A DNA stretch of 37,425 nucleotides from the NCBI GenBank assembly GCA_009377715.1, contig WHTN01000015.1:1-37425 (forward strand), given 5' to 3'. The notes below the pieces were generated by a model. That model worked only from the letters and a program-made list of their open reading frames with translations. It was not told where the DNA came from and did no database searches. Below, in pieces: positions 27,477-37,425 of the stretch. Numbering within the stretch: the stretch's first letter is position 1; each line of letters starts with the position of its first letter. Source of the DNA: Dehalococcoidia bacterium (lineage in GTDB: Bacteria; Chloroflexota; Dehalococcoidia; SM23-28-2; WHTN01). The translations under genes and the position numbers were made by a program.

Positions 27477-28223
27477 ATGGAACTAAAGGACATCCTCAGC
27501 CAAGTGCCCGGCCTCCACAAGAGGTTTATCTACTATCTCGAGTCGCAGGACTACATCCATCCAGAAAAGCTTCGTCGCCAGCGCATCTCAAGGCGCGACT
27601 ACAGCACTGAAGACCTGCGCGTCATCCGCGAGATGTGGCGCTATTACGAGCGTGGCTATTCCGTTCAAGCGGCTTACGACCTCATCAGCCGGAACGAGCG
27701 TATACTTTCTTACGTCACGCTGCCCGCCCCATTCGGGCAAAGACAGCCCCTGCTGGACGCCCTTCAAAAGCAAGCGGAGGTCGTCGAGGCTAGCGCTGTT
27801 TATGGCAACAGTTTGGACATCATCACTAAGATCGAAACGCCAGACGAAGGCGAAGTCTATCAGGTCTTATTGCCGGCTTTGCGGTCGGTCGGACTAATAG
27901 GCTCGCCAACGGTGTTTAGGGTCATACAGCATTATCAAACAGAAGGCTTAGAGAGAGGCAGCATCATTATGATCGCTTATGTGCTCATGCGGGTCCCTGG
28001 TAAGGACGCCGACCAAGTGATACAGGAACTTCGCCAATTCCCCCACATCGTGGAGGCGGCCACGGTCTACGGCGAGACCGATATAATCGCGAAGGTAGTC
28101 GTCGAGAATCAGATGGACCTCGACCGGCTAATCATGGAACGATTGCACAGCCTGCCCGCGGTGGAATCCACACGTACGTTTATAGTTATCGGCGGCCTTC
28201 ATTGGAGCCGCGACGGCAACTAA
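27477..28223 (+). CDS. Transcriptional regulator: MerR-like HTH plus two Lrp/AsnC RAM domains
   Basis: 248 residues from ATG 27477 (MELKDILSQVPGLHKRF). Residues ~1-75 resemble a MerR-type winged helix: FIYYLESQDYIHPEKLRRQRISRRDYSTEDLRVIREMWRYYERGYSVQAAYDLI. Two RAM-type ligand-binding repeats follow: ~85-150 (VVEASAVYGNSLDIITKIE) and ~165-240 (IIMIAYVLMRVPGKDADQVIQELRQFPHIVEAATVYGETDIIAKVVVEN). The RAM fold usually binds amino acids or similar small effectors. The combination is unusual compared with classical Lrp (HTH plus one RAM). The longer frame from 27423 overlaps the operator and is rejected. Confidence 0.82.
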   Translation: MELKDILSQVPGLHKRFIYYLESQDYIHPEKLRRQRISRRDYSTEDLRVIREMWRYYERGYSVQAAYDLISRNERILSYVTLPAPFGQRQPLLDALQKQAEVVEASAVYGNSLDIITKIETPDEGEVYQVLLPALRSVGLIGSPTVFRVIQHYQTEGLERGSIIMIAYVLMRVPGKDADQVIQELRQFPHIVEAATVYGETDIIAKVVVENQMDLDRLIMERLHSLPAVESTRTFIVIGGLHWSRDGN

Positions 28224-28530: not shown

Positions 28531-28571
28531 CATAGAAAAAATGCGGCTTTATCGGCCGCATTTTTTCTATG
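28531..28571. terminator. Strong bidirectional terminator hairpin
   Basis: A perfect 17-bp stem, CATAGAAAAAATGCGGC paired with GCCGCATTTTTTCTATG, with a 7-base loop. The A6/T6 runs make it a rho-independent terminator in both directions. It ends the preceding small gene. The only ATG of the following hexapeptide gene (28541) lies inside its left arm. Confidence 0.85.
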
Positions 28572-29062
28572 AAGCGCTGCTAGATCTTGAAGCGCTTCTT
28601 GACCTGAACGCGCTGCTCTGCGGTCTGCCGATCATCGATACTATCGATCCGTTGGGACTCCTTTGTGCCGCTGGAACATTGGAGACTCTCGATCTGGAGG
28701 CCTTACTAGATCTAGAGACGCTACTCGACCTTGAAGCGCTATTGAACCTTGAAGACCTCCTCGATCTAGAGGCGTTGCTGAACCTTGAAGACCTCCTGGA
28801 CTTGGAAGGTCTGCTCGACCTGGAGGGCTTGCTAGACCTCGAAGGGCTACTTAACCTAGACCAGCTTCTCGATCTCGAAACTCTGTTAGGTATAAATCTG
28901 ACGAATCTCGTAACAACCGCAGCCATCGCATCGACTGCCACTACGGTGTGCGGCGTGACCGGCATACCAACGGTAAGCGGTAGTTCCAGCATCTTCAAAC
29001 TGAACGTCCTAGGCATTCCGATAATCGTAACAGGATCCCCTAACCAGGCGGTCAAATCGTGA
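28541..29062 (+). pseudogene. Hexapeptide-repeat (DLEALL) protein, N-terminal part of a broken surface protein
   Basis: The frame encodes at least eleven consecutive hexapeptides of the form (D/N)L(E/D)xLL, with x = A, T, D, G or Q (28697-28894), preceded by less regular ones. Codons for Leu, Asp and Glu vary freely at third positions between units while the amino acids hold, so selection acted on this protein frame. A beta-rich segment follows, with GSSSIFKLNVLGIPIIVTGSPNQ, resembling choice-of-anchor P-type proteins. There the frame ends; one missing base near 29058 would lead into VINEQISP in the next frame. ATG 28541 sits inside a terminator, so the native start is unclear. Confidence 0.6.
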
Positions 29063-31126: not shown

Positions 31127-31705
31127 CTATTCGGGTGCGGCGTTGCGCTGGCTACCGTCGATAGCGATGAGTTCGGCTCCCGACGGGAACAGCGGCTCAC
31201 GGATCTCATGGACGAGGCCATAAGCTTTCGCTTGGTCGGAGTTAAGGGTCGTTCGCTCTACCATGTCGGCGAAGACCATCTCCTTCCGTTTACCCGCGGC
31301 GGAGGCGATCACGCCGGCGATGTTCTCCATGTCAAGCTTCAGCCCCTTGAGGCGCTCTTCGAGCTGCTTCTCCTCCAGGCTGGCGTTTTGGGGAAAGTTT
31401 GCCTGGACGCCATGGAGTAGGAAGCGGCCATGGGGCACGCTGTAACGTCGCTCGCCGGCGCAGTAGAGGACCAAACCCATAGAATCGACCTGTCCGAAGT
31501 TGTGAGTGTGGACTTCGGCCGGGACACCGCGCAGAAAGTTGTAGGCGGAGAGGCCGTAGAAGACGCTGCCTCCCGGCGAGGAGATGAGGACGACGAAGCG
31601 CTTGGCACCCTCGGCGAGCTTACCCTGGACGGCAGTCATCAGACGGTTGACGCTGTTGGCATCGACCTGGGTGAAGTAGCGTATGTAGACGGTTTCTTGA
31701 GGCAT
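31127..31705 (-). CDS. ClpP-like serine protease, non-canonical
   Basis: 192 residues. ClpP-fold signatures are VVLISSPGGSVFYGLSAYNFLR, then GQVDSMGLVLYCAGERRYSVPHGRFLLHGV. Ser75 (DSMG) and His98 (LLHG) match the catalytic Ser and His of ClpP. The third triad position, normally Asp in 'GLID', reads GLVHEI here. The N-terminal ~10 residues lack the usual ClpP axial loop. Such paralogues are common in bacteria and their partners are unknown. The ATG overlaps the stop of the upstream PIN-toxin gene (TAATG). A ~70-bp copy of its 5' end lies at 32464-32531 beyond the toxin-antitoxin pair. The 30955-31126 gap downstream shows nothing recognisable. Confidence 0.82.
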   Translation of the reverse strand: MPQETVYIRYFTQVDANSVNRLMTAVQGKLAEGAKRFVVLISSPGGSVFYGLSAYNFLRGVPAEVHTHNFGQVDSMGLVLYCAGERRYSVPHGRFLLHGVQANFPQNASLEEKQLEERLKGLKLDMENIAGVIASAAGKRKEMVFADMVERTTLNSDQAKAYGLVHEIREPLFPSGAELIAIDGSQRNAAPE

Positions 31706-32145
31706 TAGGGTTCGAGCCGACTGATATCTTGAATGCGATCAAAATCCGTATCCCAGCTATAAATTTCTAAGACGTTATTACTCCGCATAACAGCGATGTT
31801 GTAAGCGTCCGCAAATGACAACGAACTGTTGCCAAATATATCCAGCGCTTGTAGCAAAAGTTCTTTGCCCTCGAGCCGTAAACCTGGTAATCGAATGAGA
31901 GGCGCTATCAGTTGGGAGATTCGAGCGTTAGAGACTCGGTAACTCCTATCGAGTGTAAATATAGTCTCGAAGATAACCATGGATGAAGTAATAACCGTTT
32001 CTGCCCGCTCTCCAACTCGCAATAACAATGCAAACGCCCTTTGGGCTTTCTCTTCGTCATCACGCGTGAGATGCCGCAGTAATACATTCGTGTCAAGGAA
32101 TCTAACTGACGTTCGAGGCCGTCTCCGCCGCAACGTCGGCTGCAA
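31705..32145 (-). CDS. PIN-domain ribonuclease toxin (VapC-like)
   Basis: About 130-146 residues. PIN acidic residues are visible: FLDTNVLLRHL (first Asp), VIFETIFTL (Glu), SFADAYNIAVM (Asp), and SWDTDFDRI (last Asp). VapC toxins are Mg2+-dependent RNases acting on tRNA or rRNA. The real start is uncertain: ATG 32145 overlaps the antitoxin by 44 bp, and a TTG at residue 5 is possible. The region before RFLDTN is Arg-rich and likely untranslated or spurious. It lies directly after the AbrB-type antitoxin gene. Confidence 0.88.
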   Translation of the reverse strand: MQPTLRRRRPRTSVRFLDTNVLLRHLTRDDEEKAQRAFALLLRVGERAETVITSSMVIFETIFTLDRSYRVSNARISQLIAPLIRLPGLRLEGKELLLQALDIFGNSSLSFADAYNIAVMRSNNVLEIYSWDTDFDRIQDISRLEP

Positions 32146-32374
32146 CTCCTCTTTCGAATTCGTCTCGTAGCTTCTTAAAGTCCTCGGGCTTTGTGTGAGG
32201 CCGGACAGCGCCGAAACTGGCTAGAAGTTCAGCCGAAACAGGGCGGAGTATAGCAACCCCATCCTGAAGTTCAAAACTAACCATGTCTTTAGGCTTCAGG
32301 CCAAGCGCCTTGCGAATTGAGAGCGGCACGGTGATCTGGCCTTTCTGGGTTAAGGTGGTGTACTTACTCGTCAT
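32102..32374 (-). CDS. AbrB/MazE-type antitoxin (VapB-like)
   Basis: 90 residues. The N-terminal swapped-hairpin DNA-binding domain is clear: YTTLTQKGQITVPLSIRKALGLKPKDMVSFELQDGVAILRPV. The acidic C-terminus (TKPEDFKKLRDEFERGVAADVA) should wrap the toxin. The start region upstream carries GTAGTACTA-type short palindromes (32375-32390), a plausible autoregulatory operator. It is the first gene of the antitoxin-toxin pair. Confidence 0.9.
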   Translation of the reverse strand: MTSKYTTLTQKGQITVPLSIRKALGLKPKDMVSFELQDGVAILRPVSAELLASFGAVRPHTKPEDFKKLRDEFERGVAADVAAETASNVS

Positions 32375-32555: not shown

Positions 32556-32882
32556 TTAGGACACGGTGTGCCAGGCGAGCGCGCCCACCGGCTGAAGGCT
32601 GTCCTCGTCCATCTGGACGTGGACAAGCCAGGGATCAGCGTTCGCTTTCAGCGCACGCGAGACGAGCGAGTACCTTTCGGCATCCGTCAGCATCGGAGGC
32701 TGGCCCGGGAATACCGCGGACTTCACCTGAATGAAGACGCGGCGCTCGCCCAGGGCGACAAGTATATCGGTGGCGCCGGAAGGCCGCGCTTCTTCTAACA
32801 GGACCGTCCAGCCGTGCGAGCGTAGTATTTTGGCGACATGGCCTTCGCCAGCTTTTGCGAGTTCATCGATGGTCCAGAGCAT
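32556..32882 (-). CDS. Small protein with a PD-(D/E)XK-like core
   Basis: About 108 residues from ATG 32882 (MLWTIDELAKAGEGHVAKILRSHGW), with GGTGG upstream. GATDILVALGERRVFIQVKSAV has the D-(x)n-(E/Q)xK pattern of restriction-endonuclease-like folds, with Gln replacing Glu. The N-terminal helix followed by a 'GW.V' strand and this core is the layout of short Holliday-junction-resolvase-like or DUF-type nucleases. Whether it is active is unclear because of the Gln. It lies upstream of the ClpP fragment, divergent from the small gene at 33039. Confidence 0.6.
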   Translation of the reverse strand: MLWTIDELAKAGEGHVAKILRSHGWTVLLEEARPSGATDILVALGERRVFIQVKSAVFPGQPPMLTDAERYSLVSRALKANADPWLVHVQMDEDSLQPVGALAWHTVS

Positions 32883-32965
32883 CGTGCTCACCACCTAGTA
32901 GTTTTGCATTACTATAAAGGCGATTAAGCAGTTTGTCAATTCTTTTTTGAATATTTTCAAAAGTT

Positions 32966-33009
32966 TATAAAGTCCAAGTCTTGACTTAGACTTTATATGG
33001 GCTTAGAAT
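32966..33009 (+). promoter_or_regulatory. Promoter with a 32-bp near-perfect palindromic operator
   Basis: TATAAAGTCCAAGTCT (32966-32981) is followed by TGACTTAGACTTTATA (32982-32997), the reverse complement apart from one mismatched pair (32975/32988). The -35 box TTGACT (32981-32986) sits in the centre; a 17-base spacer leads to the -10 TAGAAT (33004-33009). A regulator bound to this palindrome would block the promoter. The site faces the small gene at 33039. Confidence 0.75.
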
Positions 33010-33038
33010 ACAGAAAAGAAAGCTGGAGGAAATACGTA

Positions 33039-33239
33039 ATGCAACTACAACATGAAATACAGACGACGACAGCTCTGCAGAAGATCGAGGCGGAATTGCG
33101 AGAGGCCCACACCTACGCCCGGCAATACGGCCAGGGCTGGGAGCACGTTGAGGAGCTACAGAAGCTGCACGCCATGTACGTAGAGGCGCTGGCCTCACAA
33201 GGCCACACCTGCGAGCCGGTGCTCGCACAAGCGGCTTAA
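33039..33239 (+). CDS. Small helical protein under a tightly controlled promoter
   Basis: 66 residues from ATG 33039, preceded by GGAGGAAA; the predicted transcription start (~33016) excludes the longer frame from 32997. The protein is charged and helical (EIQTTTALQKIEAELREAHTYARQYGQGWEHVEELQKLHAMYVEAL) and ends with a single Cys in HTCEP. No family recognised. The strong operator suggests that it is made only under a specific condition. Confidence 0.6.
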   Translation: MQLQHEIQTTTALQKIEAELREAHTYARQYGQGWEHVEELQKLHAMYVEALASQGHTCEPVLAQAA

Positions 33240-33289: not shown

Positions 33290-33321
33290 CTGTAGGGGCG
33301 GTTCGTGAACCGCCCCTACAG
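33290..33321. repeat. 32-bp GC-rich palindrome R3, second full copy
   Basis: CTGTAGGGGCGGTTCG, then TGAACCGCCCCTACAG; it differs from the copy at 2201-2232 by one base in the centre. It lies 50 bp after the small helical gene. Confidence 0.85.
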
Positions 33322-33430: not shown

Positions 33431-35818
33431 TCAACTACACGTGCTGTACCCGCAGCTCCGGCACACTAGGCAGCCCTCCTGGTACGCTAGGATCGAGCCG
33501 CACTCAGGGCAACCGACGCCGGAGGAGTTGCTGGCGTCTAGCGGGACGATAGGCACATCGGAGACGACGTCGACGGTGTGGCCGTTGCCGCCGCGCTGAT
33601 CGGCAGGGACGAACTTGATCTCCAGCCAGCGGTAGATGTAGTCGACAAGCGACGTCGCGAAGGGGATCTCGCGGTTGGCCGCCGGGCCGTACGGCTCGAA
33701 GCGGGTGTTCTTCAGCTTGCGGACGAGGTCCTCCAGCGGAACGCCATACTGGAGCGTCATCGAGGTGAGCACGGCCATCGTGTCCATGAGGCCGGAGACG
33801 GTGGAGCCTTCCTTCGAGATCTTGATAAAGATCTCGCCGGGGGTGCCATCATCGAACAGGCCAACCGTTAGGTAGCCCTCCTGCCCGCCGACCGTGAACT
33901 TATGCGTTATCGACTGCCGTTCGTTCGGCAAGCGTCGTCGGTAGGGCGTAGCGCTTGGCGTCCCTGAGGAAGGAGGAAGGAGGTCGAGCGAAGCAGTTCC
34001 CTCACCTTCCTCCGTCCCGCTTTCTTCTTCCTTCTTAGCATGCGAGAGGACGGACCAGTCGCGACTGCCTTCGCGGTAGATAGTGATGCCCTTGCAGCCC
34101 TCTTCGTAAGCCAGACGGTAGGCGTTCATCACGTCCTCGACCGTGGCGTCGAACGGGAAGTTGATGGTCTTGGAGACGGCGTTGTCCGTGTGGCGTTGGA
34201 AAGCCGCCTGCATGCGGACGTGCCACTCCGGGCTGATGTCGTGCGCTGTCACGTAGACCTGCTTCACCCACTCTGGCACCTCGGGCCGGTCGGCGAGCTT
34301 GCCGCCTTCGGCCAGATACTGCATCAGCTCCTCGGAGTGGAAACCCTCCTCTTTGGCGACGCGCAGGAAGTAATCGTTAACGTCGGTGAGCTGCGTGCGC
34401 TTCGAGGGGTCTTTGGGGTCGAGGAAGTGCTGGCGAACGAAGGCCAAGGCGAAGATCGGCTCGATGCCAGACGAGCAATCGGCGATGATCGAGATCGTGC
34501 CGGTCGGCGCGATGACGGTGCGGTTGCAGTTGCGGTAGCGCAGGCCAGCATCCTTATGGATCGAGTCTTCCCAGGCTGGGTAGACGTTGCGTTCCGCGGC
34601 GAGGGCGATGGAAGCCTGGTTCGAGCGCTGCTGAATGAAGCCCATGACTTCCTGGCCGAGCCGCACGCCCTCTTCCGAGTTGTAGGGGACCTTCAATTGG
34701 AAGAGAAGGTCGGCGAAACCCATCACGCCGAGGCCGATGCGCCGCATCTTGTGGCTCCACTCCTGAATCTGAGGGATAGGGTAGCGGTTCATGTCGATGA
34801 CGTTGTCGAGGAAGCGGACGGTTACGTCGACGACCTCGCCCAGGTGGGCGTAGTCGATCGTCTTCTTGCCGTCAACTTCCTTCACAAACATCGCAAGGTT
34901 GATCGAGCCGAGGTTGCACGACTCGTACGGGAACAGCGGCTCCTCGCCGCAAGGGTTAGTCGCCTCGATGCGCCCGTACTTCGGCGTGGGGTTGGACTCG
35001 GACGCGTTGATGCGGTCGATGAAGATGAGGCCGGGGTCGCCGTTGCGCCAGGCGTTCGTGACCATGCGATCGAACATCTCGCGGGCGTCGCGCGTGCCCA
35101 CCGGCTCGCCGGTGCGCGGGCTGCGCAGCGCGTACGATTCGCCGCGCTCGACGGCCTGCATGAACTCTTCAGTGACGGCGACAGAGATGTTGAAATTGGT
35201 CAGCGTCACCATGTCGGACTTCATAGTGATGAATGACTCGACGTCGGGATGGTCGACGGCGAGGATGCCCATGTTCGCGCCGCGGCGGGTGCCGCCCTGC
35301 TTGATCTGCTCGGTGGCGCAATCGAATATCTTTAGGAAGGAGACCGGGCCGGACGCCACGCCCATCGTCGACTTCACACGGTCACCTTCAGGGCGGACGC
35401 GGCTGAAGGAGAAGCCGGTGCCCCCGCCAGACTTGTGGATAAGCGCGGTGTGTTTGATCGATTCGAAGATGCCTTCGATAGAGTCGTCGACCGGCAGGAC
35501 GAAGCAGGCCGAGAGCTGCTGGAGGTCGCGGCCGGCGTTCATCAGGGTGGGGGAGTTCGGCATGAACTCCATGCTGGCCATGATCCGGTAGAACCGGTCT
35601 TCCCACTGGTCAGCGGCGTGCTCAGGGTCTTGGCCAGCATAGCGACGCTCAGCCTGGGCGATGTTGTTGGCGACGCGACCGAATAGCTCCTCAGGCGTCT
35701 CGATCGCTTCGCCGTCGTCGTTCTTCTTGAGATATCGGCGCTCCAGGACGACGCGCGAGTTGTTCGACACGGCAACCGGCGGGCGAACTTTGACGTGGTT
35801 GTTGTTTAAGATGGCCAT
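33431..35818 (-). CDS. nrdJ: Adenosylcobalamin-dependent (class II) ribonucleotide reductase
   Basis: 795 residues. The barrel signatures are present: NSPTLMNAG, LSACFVLPVDDSIEGIFES, KSGGGTGFSFSRVRP, QGGTRRGANMGIL, the catalytic-loop motif ATNPCGEEPLFPYESCNLGSINL, and APTGTISIIADCSSGIEP. The C-terminal end CPECGSILAYQEGCLVCRSCGYSTCS is the zinc-ribbon tail seen in NrdJ-type class II enzymes. It makes deoxyribonucleotides using a cobalamin-generated radical. No N-terminal ATP cone is visible. ATG 35818 follows AAGGAGAAGAGG. nrdR lies ~1.2 kb upstream on the same strand. No NrdR box was recognised in front of nrdJ. The frame is intact over 2.4 kb. Confidence 0.96.
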   Translation of the reverse strand: MAILNNNHVKVRPPVAVSNNSRVVLERRYLKKNDDGEAIETPEELFGRVANNIAQAERRYAGQDPEHAADQWEDRFYRIMASMEFMPNSPTLMNAGRDLQQLSACFVLPVDDSIEGIFESIKHTALIHKSGGGTGFSFSRVRPEGDRVKSTMGVASGPVSFLKIFDCATEQIKQGGTRRGANMGILAVDHPDVESFITMKSDMVTLTNFNISVAVTEEFMQAVERGESYALRSPRTGEPVGTRDAREMFDRMVTNAWRNGDPGLIFIDRINASESNPTPKYGRIEATNPCGEEPLFPYESCNLGSINLAMFVKEVDGKKTIDYAHLGEVVDVTVRFLDNVIDMNRYPIPQIQEWSHKMRRIGLGVMGFADLLFQLKVPYNSEEGVRLGQEVMGFIQQRSNQASIALAAERNVYPAWEDSIHKDAGLRYRNCNRTVIAPTGTISIIADCSSGIEPIFALAFVRQHFLDPKDPSKRTQLTDVNDYFLRVAKEEGFHSEELMQYLAEGGKLADRPEVPEWVKQVYVTAHDISPEWHVRMQAAFQRHTDNAVSKTINFPFDATVEDVMNAYRLAYEEGCKGITIYREGSRDWSVLSHAKKEEESGTEEGEGTASLDLLPPSSGTPSATPYRRRLPNERQSITHKFTVGGQEGYLTVGLFDDGTPGEIFIKISKEGSTVSGLMDTMAVLTSMTLQYGVPLEDLVRKLKNTRFEPYGPAANREIPFATSLVDYIYRWLEIKFVPADQRGGNGHTVDVVSDVPIVPLDASNSSGVGCPECGSILAYQEGCLVCRSCGYSTCS

Positions 35819-36825: not shown

Positions 36826-37022
36826 TCAGCCGCTTGCCTTCCTCTCTTTCAAGTACTCTTCGAATGGACGTGTCGGCTCGCTTTCTCTTTCGCAAGCGTT
36901 GCTATATCCAGAAGGTCCTCGCGAACGTCCTGATCTTCTAGCATGCGTTCCAGGATCGCTAATTTTTCGGCCTTGGGAAGGCCAGAGAATGCCGTCCAAA
37001 CTTTTTCAGTCGCAGCCTGCAT
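36826..37022 (-). pseudogene. Small helical protein downstream of nrdR, 3' end frameshifted
   Basis: From ATG 37022 (overlapping the nrdR stop, TAATG) the frame reads MQAATEKVWTAFSGLPKAEK, then LAILERMLEDQDVREDLLDIATLAKEK, and stops at 36849 after 57 residues. One base changed near 36892 continues instead as ESEPTRPFEEYLKERKASG, stop at 36826. The 'R-PFEEYL' end is typical of small bacterial antitoxin-like proteins of unknown role, so the longer version is probably native. Confidence 0.55.
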
Positions 37023-37425
37023 TAGCGCCGTGCCTCCTCACCAGTAGGCTCGCCGCCGACCACTTTCAGCCCGCCGCGGACACCGTTTTGTGGCGCTTCT
37101 TCAGGAAGCAACGGCAGCTGGCCGGGCAAAACCTTCTCGGCGGCGGAACGAGCGCGCTCCAGCCGTTCGATCTCGGCACGGACGTCGTCGACATCGGCGA
37201 AGGAGCGGTAGACACTGGCGAAGCGGATGTAGGCGATGTGGTCGAGGTTGCGCAAGCGCTCCATCACCAGATCGCCGATGAAGGTGCTCGGCACTTCGGC
37301 CCGACCCTGAGCGGCTGCGGCGGCCTCGACTTCCTCGGCGAGCACCTCGACGGTGCTGGCCGGTATCGGCCGCTTCTCGCAGGCACGACGGATGCCGGCC
37401 AGCAGCTTCTCGCTGGAGAAGGACT
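37022..37425 (-). CDS. nrdR: Transcriptional repressor NrdR, partial
   Basis: The gene runs off the right edge; about 134 C-terminal residues are seen. The ATP-cone part is clear: SFSSEKLLAGIRRACEKRPI, then EVLAEEVEAAAAAQGRAEVPSTFIGDLVMERLRNLDHIAYIRFASVYRSF in segments. The N-terminal zinc ribbon lies outside the window. NrdR senses ATP/dATP through this cone and represses ribonucleotide reductase genes. The C-terminus after FADVDDV is longer than usual by ~40 residues and Pro/Gly-rich. nrdJ downstream is the expected target. Confidence 0.95.
   Translation of the reverse strand, partial: SFSSEKLLAGIRRACEKRPIPASTVEVLAEEVEAAAAAQGRAEVPSTFIGDLVMERLRNLDHIAYIRFASVYRSFADVDDVRAEIERLERARSAAEKVLPGQLPLLPEEAPQNGVRGGLKVVGGEPTGEEARR

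Follow-up and report, generated by a model that had tools for sequence, protein, structure and literature searches.

What does a long, nearly symmetric stretch of DNA do when it lies between two divergent open reading frames and across a promoter? The question is raised by TATAAAGTCCAAGTCTTGACTTAGACTTTATA, a 32-base near-palindrome read from the sequence of a Dehalococcoidia contig, within a window of 37,425 nucleotides (the whole stretch of DNA that was analysed). A first-pass annotation had taken it for a rare, perfect operator serving a single gene. Here we examine its symmetry, its surroundings and its possible relatives, and weigh the operator reading against other explanations.

Results

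Symmetry of the palindrome and layout of the spacer

An inverted-repeat search returned arms TATAAAGTCCAAGTC and GACTTAGACTTTATA, each of 15 nt and 93% complementary, around a spacer of 2 nt. Over the whole element 28 of the 32 positions are self-complementary, the mismatched pairs being the tenth and the central T/T. The first-pass annotation was right about the palindrome, but two pairs fail rather than the one it had allowed for, and the operator is not perfect; its span also ran on to 33009 and so took in the -10 box, which lies outside the palindrome itself (Table 1). The inner 12-bp core, AAGTC-TT-GACTT, is symmetric except at its centre. Four half-sites can be recognised (AAGTC at 32970 and 32976, GACTT at 32983 and 32989), like half-sites recurring at 6 bp.

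Table 1. Features of the palindrome and its flanking ORFs, in window coordinates
Feature	Position	Strand	Basis or remark
Orphan ORF, nuclease-like	32556-32894	-	112 aa (GTG start) or 108 aa (ATG start, 32882)
Divergent sigma-70-like promoter, TTGACA-17-TATAGT	32911-32939	-	11/12 consensus
Imperfect palindrome, presumed operator	32966-32997	.	14/16 pairs; chance tests
Sigma-70-like promoter, TTGACT-17-TAGAAT	32981-33009	+	10/12 consensus; -35 box wholly within palindrome
Ribosome-binding site GGAGG of 66-aa ORF	33025-33029	+	Read from sequence
66-aa orphan ORF, predicted mostly helical	33039-33239	+	Codon score; low-confidence model

Two promoters were found in the spacer, compared with a mean of 0.4 in shuffles, both being consensus matches alone. 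The rightward one, whose overlap with the palindrome had been correctly annotated, places the palindrome over putative promoter elements of the 66-aa ORF. The -35 box of the leftward one lies 26 bp from the left edge of the palindrome. Judged by the -10 boxes, transcripts would begin near 33016 (rightward) and 32904 (leftward). This second promoter and the nuclease-like ORF, which both point left, went unmentioned when one gene was said to be served; as a leftward promoter stands before that ORF, the palindrome may serve two genes.

The 66-aa ORF, which starts at ATG 33039, is a plausible gene: its ribosome-binding site is good and its codon use is like that of the host. With 60,268 codons of the assembly's long ORFs as reference it scored 0.152, a value attained by none of 2000 base shuffles; the antisense ORF at the same locus scored -0.459, and nearby scores were 0.152 for an antitoxin gene, -0.106 for a PIN gene and 0.376 for the ribonucleotide reductase gene. 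Its structure model is helical at low confidence (mean pLDDT 67.6). No relatives were found in 99 further genomes from the order and class, among which those listed included none of the same genus or family, nor among plasmids, phages and viral contigs; Pfam and NCBIfam gave no family match above cut-off, and no DNA-binding family was recognised. PADLOC returned no match over E 0.04 significance and Rfam a single match, far below its cut-off. The leftward ORF matched UPF0102/YraN below threshold in both Pfam and NCBIfam (E 0.012 in each), and from its motifs we take it to be a possible PD-(D/E)XK nuclease; its structure model has a mean pLDDT of 56.5, and a search of 24 further genomes from the order found no relatives.

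Further copies of the site

The first-pass annotation had proposed a genome-wide scan for the core as a means of defining a regulon. In the assembly, which is 93.55% complete, AAGTC-NN-GACTT occurs at one place (control 0), and with one mismatch allowed the count is 41, the reversed control giving 45. Even at up to 3 mismatches the nested 20-base pattern was found at a single place in the assembly (control 0). Wider spacings were no more productive: AAGTC-N4-GACTT was found at 3 places in the assembly (control 5) and AAAGTC-N0-22-GACTTT at 2 (control 5), the other place for the latter being a 24-nt stretch with a GC-rich middle on C29. With a single core, no excess at one mismatch and no second 20-base site, nothing points to a regulon, and the absence of other copies, which had been named beforehand as refuting the proposal if joined by constitutive expression, is what this assembly presents. 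It follows too that no regulator gene in the assembly carries a recognisable copy of the site.

Searched at up to one mismatch, 1 of 393 genomes of the class held a match, namely the genome itself, with none in the other 392, and viral contigs yielded no matching stretches. The 18-base pattern was present in three stretches of genome contigs. Two belong to E14_maxbin.225_sub (L007:4745 and L008:7185), where longer palindromes surround AAGTCATGACTT and have CATG at the centre instead, the first lying between convergent ORFs or same-strand ORFs in one case each; they are possibly terminators or a lineage repeat. The third, in an Actinomycetes MAG, lies within an ORF. These contexts are not those of operators of a related gene and we judged all three stretches unrelated; by a rough estimate, a few such stretches are expected from chance alone. 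A partial match in a sampled stretch (17/22 at L033:12965) was set aside, as by eye it has little symmetry of its own.

Matches to regulator families in the genome comprised 3 TetR_N, 2 Rrf2 and 11 MarR_2 (7 of the latter above cut-off). None of the three TetR_N genes is on the contig of the window or adjoins the palindrome, and the best site match in the surroundings of the three loci, 14/22, is no better than background. At the 2 Rrf2 loci and 4 of the 11 MarR_2 loci no site match reached 15/22.

These results bear on the reading first proposed, in which a small winged-helix repressor of the MarR, ArsR or BlaI type would bind as one dimer and occupy only the inner AAGTC-TT-GACTT. The near-symmetry of that core and the 11 MarR_2 matches agree with it, yet it leaves the symmetry of the outer arms, out to 15 nt, unexplained, and the core is neither repeated nor enriched at one mismatch; we hold it to be unlikely, though still credible. 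As to the class itself (MarR, ArsR, CadC or BlaI), it is something that sequence cannot show, and the length and half-site spacing suit two dimers at least equally well.

Long palindromes in the genome and expectation from chance

Repeats with 15-nt arms, at most one mismatch and a loop of 0-8 were counted as comparable. There are 21 such long repeats in 303 kb of this genome (the window has 5, and a sample of 265,929 bases from the assembly has 16), a frequency at odds with the rarity that had been ascribed to so long an operator. Of the 20 others, 16 sit 6-118 bp past a stop codon, one straddles a stop and three lie within ORFs, as placed by a crude ORF caller that took the longest frames first and required 80 aa or more; the distance of the window copy at 33290 was measured from the ribonucleotide reductase gene. 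Only the palindrome at 32966-32997 is upstream of both its neighbours, that is, between divergent genes; the caller chose the antisense ORF there, so this context was placed by hand using codon scores. Since long palindromes are common after genes in this genome, it is position, not length, that sets this one apart.

Most of the sampled long palindromes thus sit where terminators or repeat-type hairpins would, which lends something to the view that this one is such an element with no regulatory role at the promoter. However, the GC-rich stem, T-tract and upstream gene of an intrinsic terminator are all missing: GC is 0.28, there is no T-tract, the neighbours diverge so that the palindrome follows no gene, and an antisense ORF with its end at the palindrome has a non-coding score. 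A comparison is offered by an interspersed family of palindromic repeats, GTAGGGGCGG, to which some of the long palindromes counted above belong. It is found at 8 places in the assembly at up to 2 mismatches, and two copies, of the form TGTAGGGGCGGTTCG(C/T)GAACCGCCCCTACA, lie in the window at 2202-2231 and 33290-33321, the latter about 290 bp from the palindrome studied here. It too is a long palindrome, whereas ours is single-copy and AT-rich, and a terminator or hairpin seems to us quite improbable.

Of 200 window-length sequences generated by a first-order Markov model of the window, 6 held a comparable repeat with loops of 0-8, and with loops of 0-2 the mean was 0; when the model was built from the local 160 bp, 2 of 5000 sequences contained an equally symmetric repeat (loops 0-8). 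By these simple models, which make no correction for the palindrome having been picked as the most striking among many features, the symmetry exceeds chance. Functionless symmetry arising by chance in an AT-rich spacer would be in keeping with a single copy and with conservation not having been shown, but given these frequencies there is little to commend it.

Neighbouring regulators and other features

That no regulator gene is adjacent, as had been stated, holds for both flanking ORFs by family matches but not for the wider surroundings. On the minus strand at 31705-32374 lies a VapBC-like pair, a PIN-domain toxin and a MazE/AbrB-type antitoxin whose genes overlap; the antitoxin gene (32102-32374) is about 0.6 kb from the palindrome. 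About 5 kb away, the regulator at 27477-28220 combines a weak, sub-cut-off MerR-like N-terminus with a clear Lrp/AsnC ligand-binding domain, to our knowledge an uncommon pairing. In the spacer upstream of the VapBC-like pair, GGTAGTA/TACTACC repeats are visible by eye.

Control by a local regulator, either the 66-aa protein itself or the antitoxin, is the least probable explanation, for although antitoxins of the MazE/AbrB-type fold bind DNA and this gene is close by, the repeats upstream of it look different, the nested pattern has no 3-mismatch copy elsewhere in the assembly and no DNA-binding family was recognised in the 66-aa protein.

Two further features of the window were observed. An ATP-cone fragment (37022-37345, minus strand), which we take to resemble the C-terminal part of NrdR, lies near the window end, upstream of the ribonucleotide reductase gene (33431-35818). 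The ORF at 28541-29062 is made up of repeated LLDLEALLDLE-like units and has no Pfam match at E 0.01.

Discussion

Because the palindrome is the only one of the 21 placed upstream of both its neighbours, its best explanation is that of an operator for a DNA-binding repressor encoded elsewhere in the genome, to which, taken as a whole, we assign a probability of about 55%. In favour of an operator are symmetry beyond chance, the covering of the -35 box of a plausible gene and a single copy, unlike the GTAGGGGCGG family; against it count the lack of another site in the assembly and of any match within one mismatch in the other 392 class genomes, flanking ORFs for which no relatives were found and a promoter recognised by consensus only. 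As the only copy found in the assembly, it has the appearance of an ordinary switch with a local role, and a single-site operator of this kind is probable on the sequence evidence.

A repressor bound here would cover the rightward -35 box and exclude RNA polymerase, so that the 66-aa gene would stay silent until a signal freed the repressor, while the leftward promoter, 26 bp off, would be unaffected or affected indirectly. The nesting of two AAGTC and two GACTT half-sites 6 bp apart suggests two adjacent dimers, which would sit side by side, each on AAGTC-N8-GACTT with an offset of 6 bp, the arrangement of regulators that bind as a dimer of dimers. The sequence itself, its promoter-like boxes, its place and its single copy are observed; protein binding, repression and the arrangement of two dimers are inferred.

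One might go further and suppose that the two orphan ORFs and the spacer between them act together as a switch private to this gene pair, for example a defence or toxin-antitoxin-like pair beside the PIN/MazE-type module, with one two-dimer site balancing the divergent promoters; we mention this as a speculation and think it highly unlikely. The operator reading, if true, would add one further repressor site, at a gene without known relatives, and a handle on the timing of production from the 66-aa gene, and would define neither a regulon nor a new mechanism.

Operators of the MarR, ArsR and BlaI type are likewise inverted repeats over a promoter. They usually bind one dimer at a shorter core; the present palindrome is symmetric over a greater length and has no gene of these families beside it. 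With the dimer-of-dimers TetR operators (QacR, CgmR) the palindrome has in common its length, long inverted symmetry, promoter overlap and nested half-sites, and the QacR dimers are shifted by 6 bp, which resembles the nesting seen here. We know of no relation in sequence to QacR/CgmR-type operators, and the present site differs in that no TetR gene is adjacent or seen to be self-regulated through the same site and that binding is putative. According to PMC4150764, operators bound by two TetR-type dimers measure 28 bp (QacR), 32 bp (CgmR), 31 bp (MS6564) and 22 bp (CprB), and single-dimer operators 15-17 bp. By the same lengths our palindrome fits the range of about 22-32 bp, symmetric throughout, that marks dimer-of-dimers TetR operators. 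As a lead drawn from this analogy, its 32 bp and hexamer-spaced half-sites appear closer to two-dimer operators of the QacR/CgmR type than to the site of a single MarR, ArsR or BlaI dimer.
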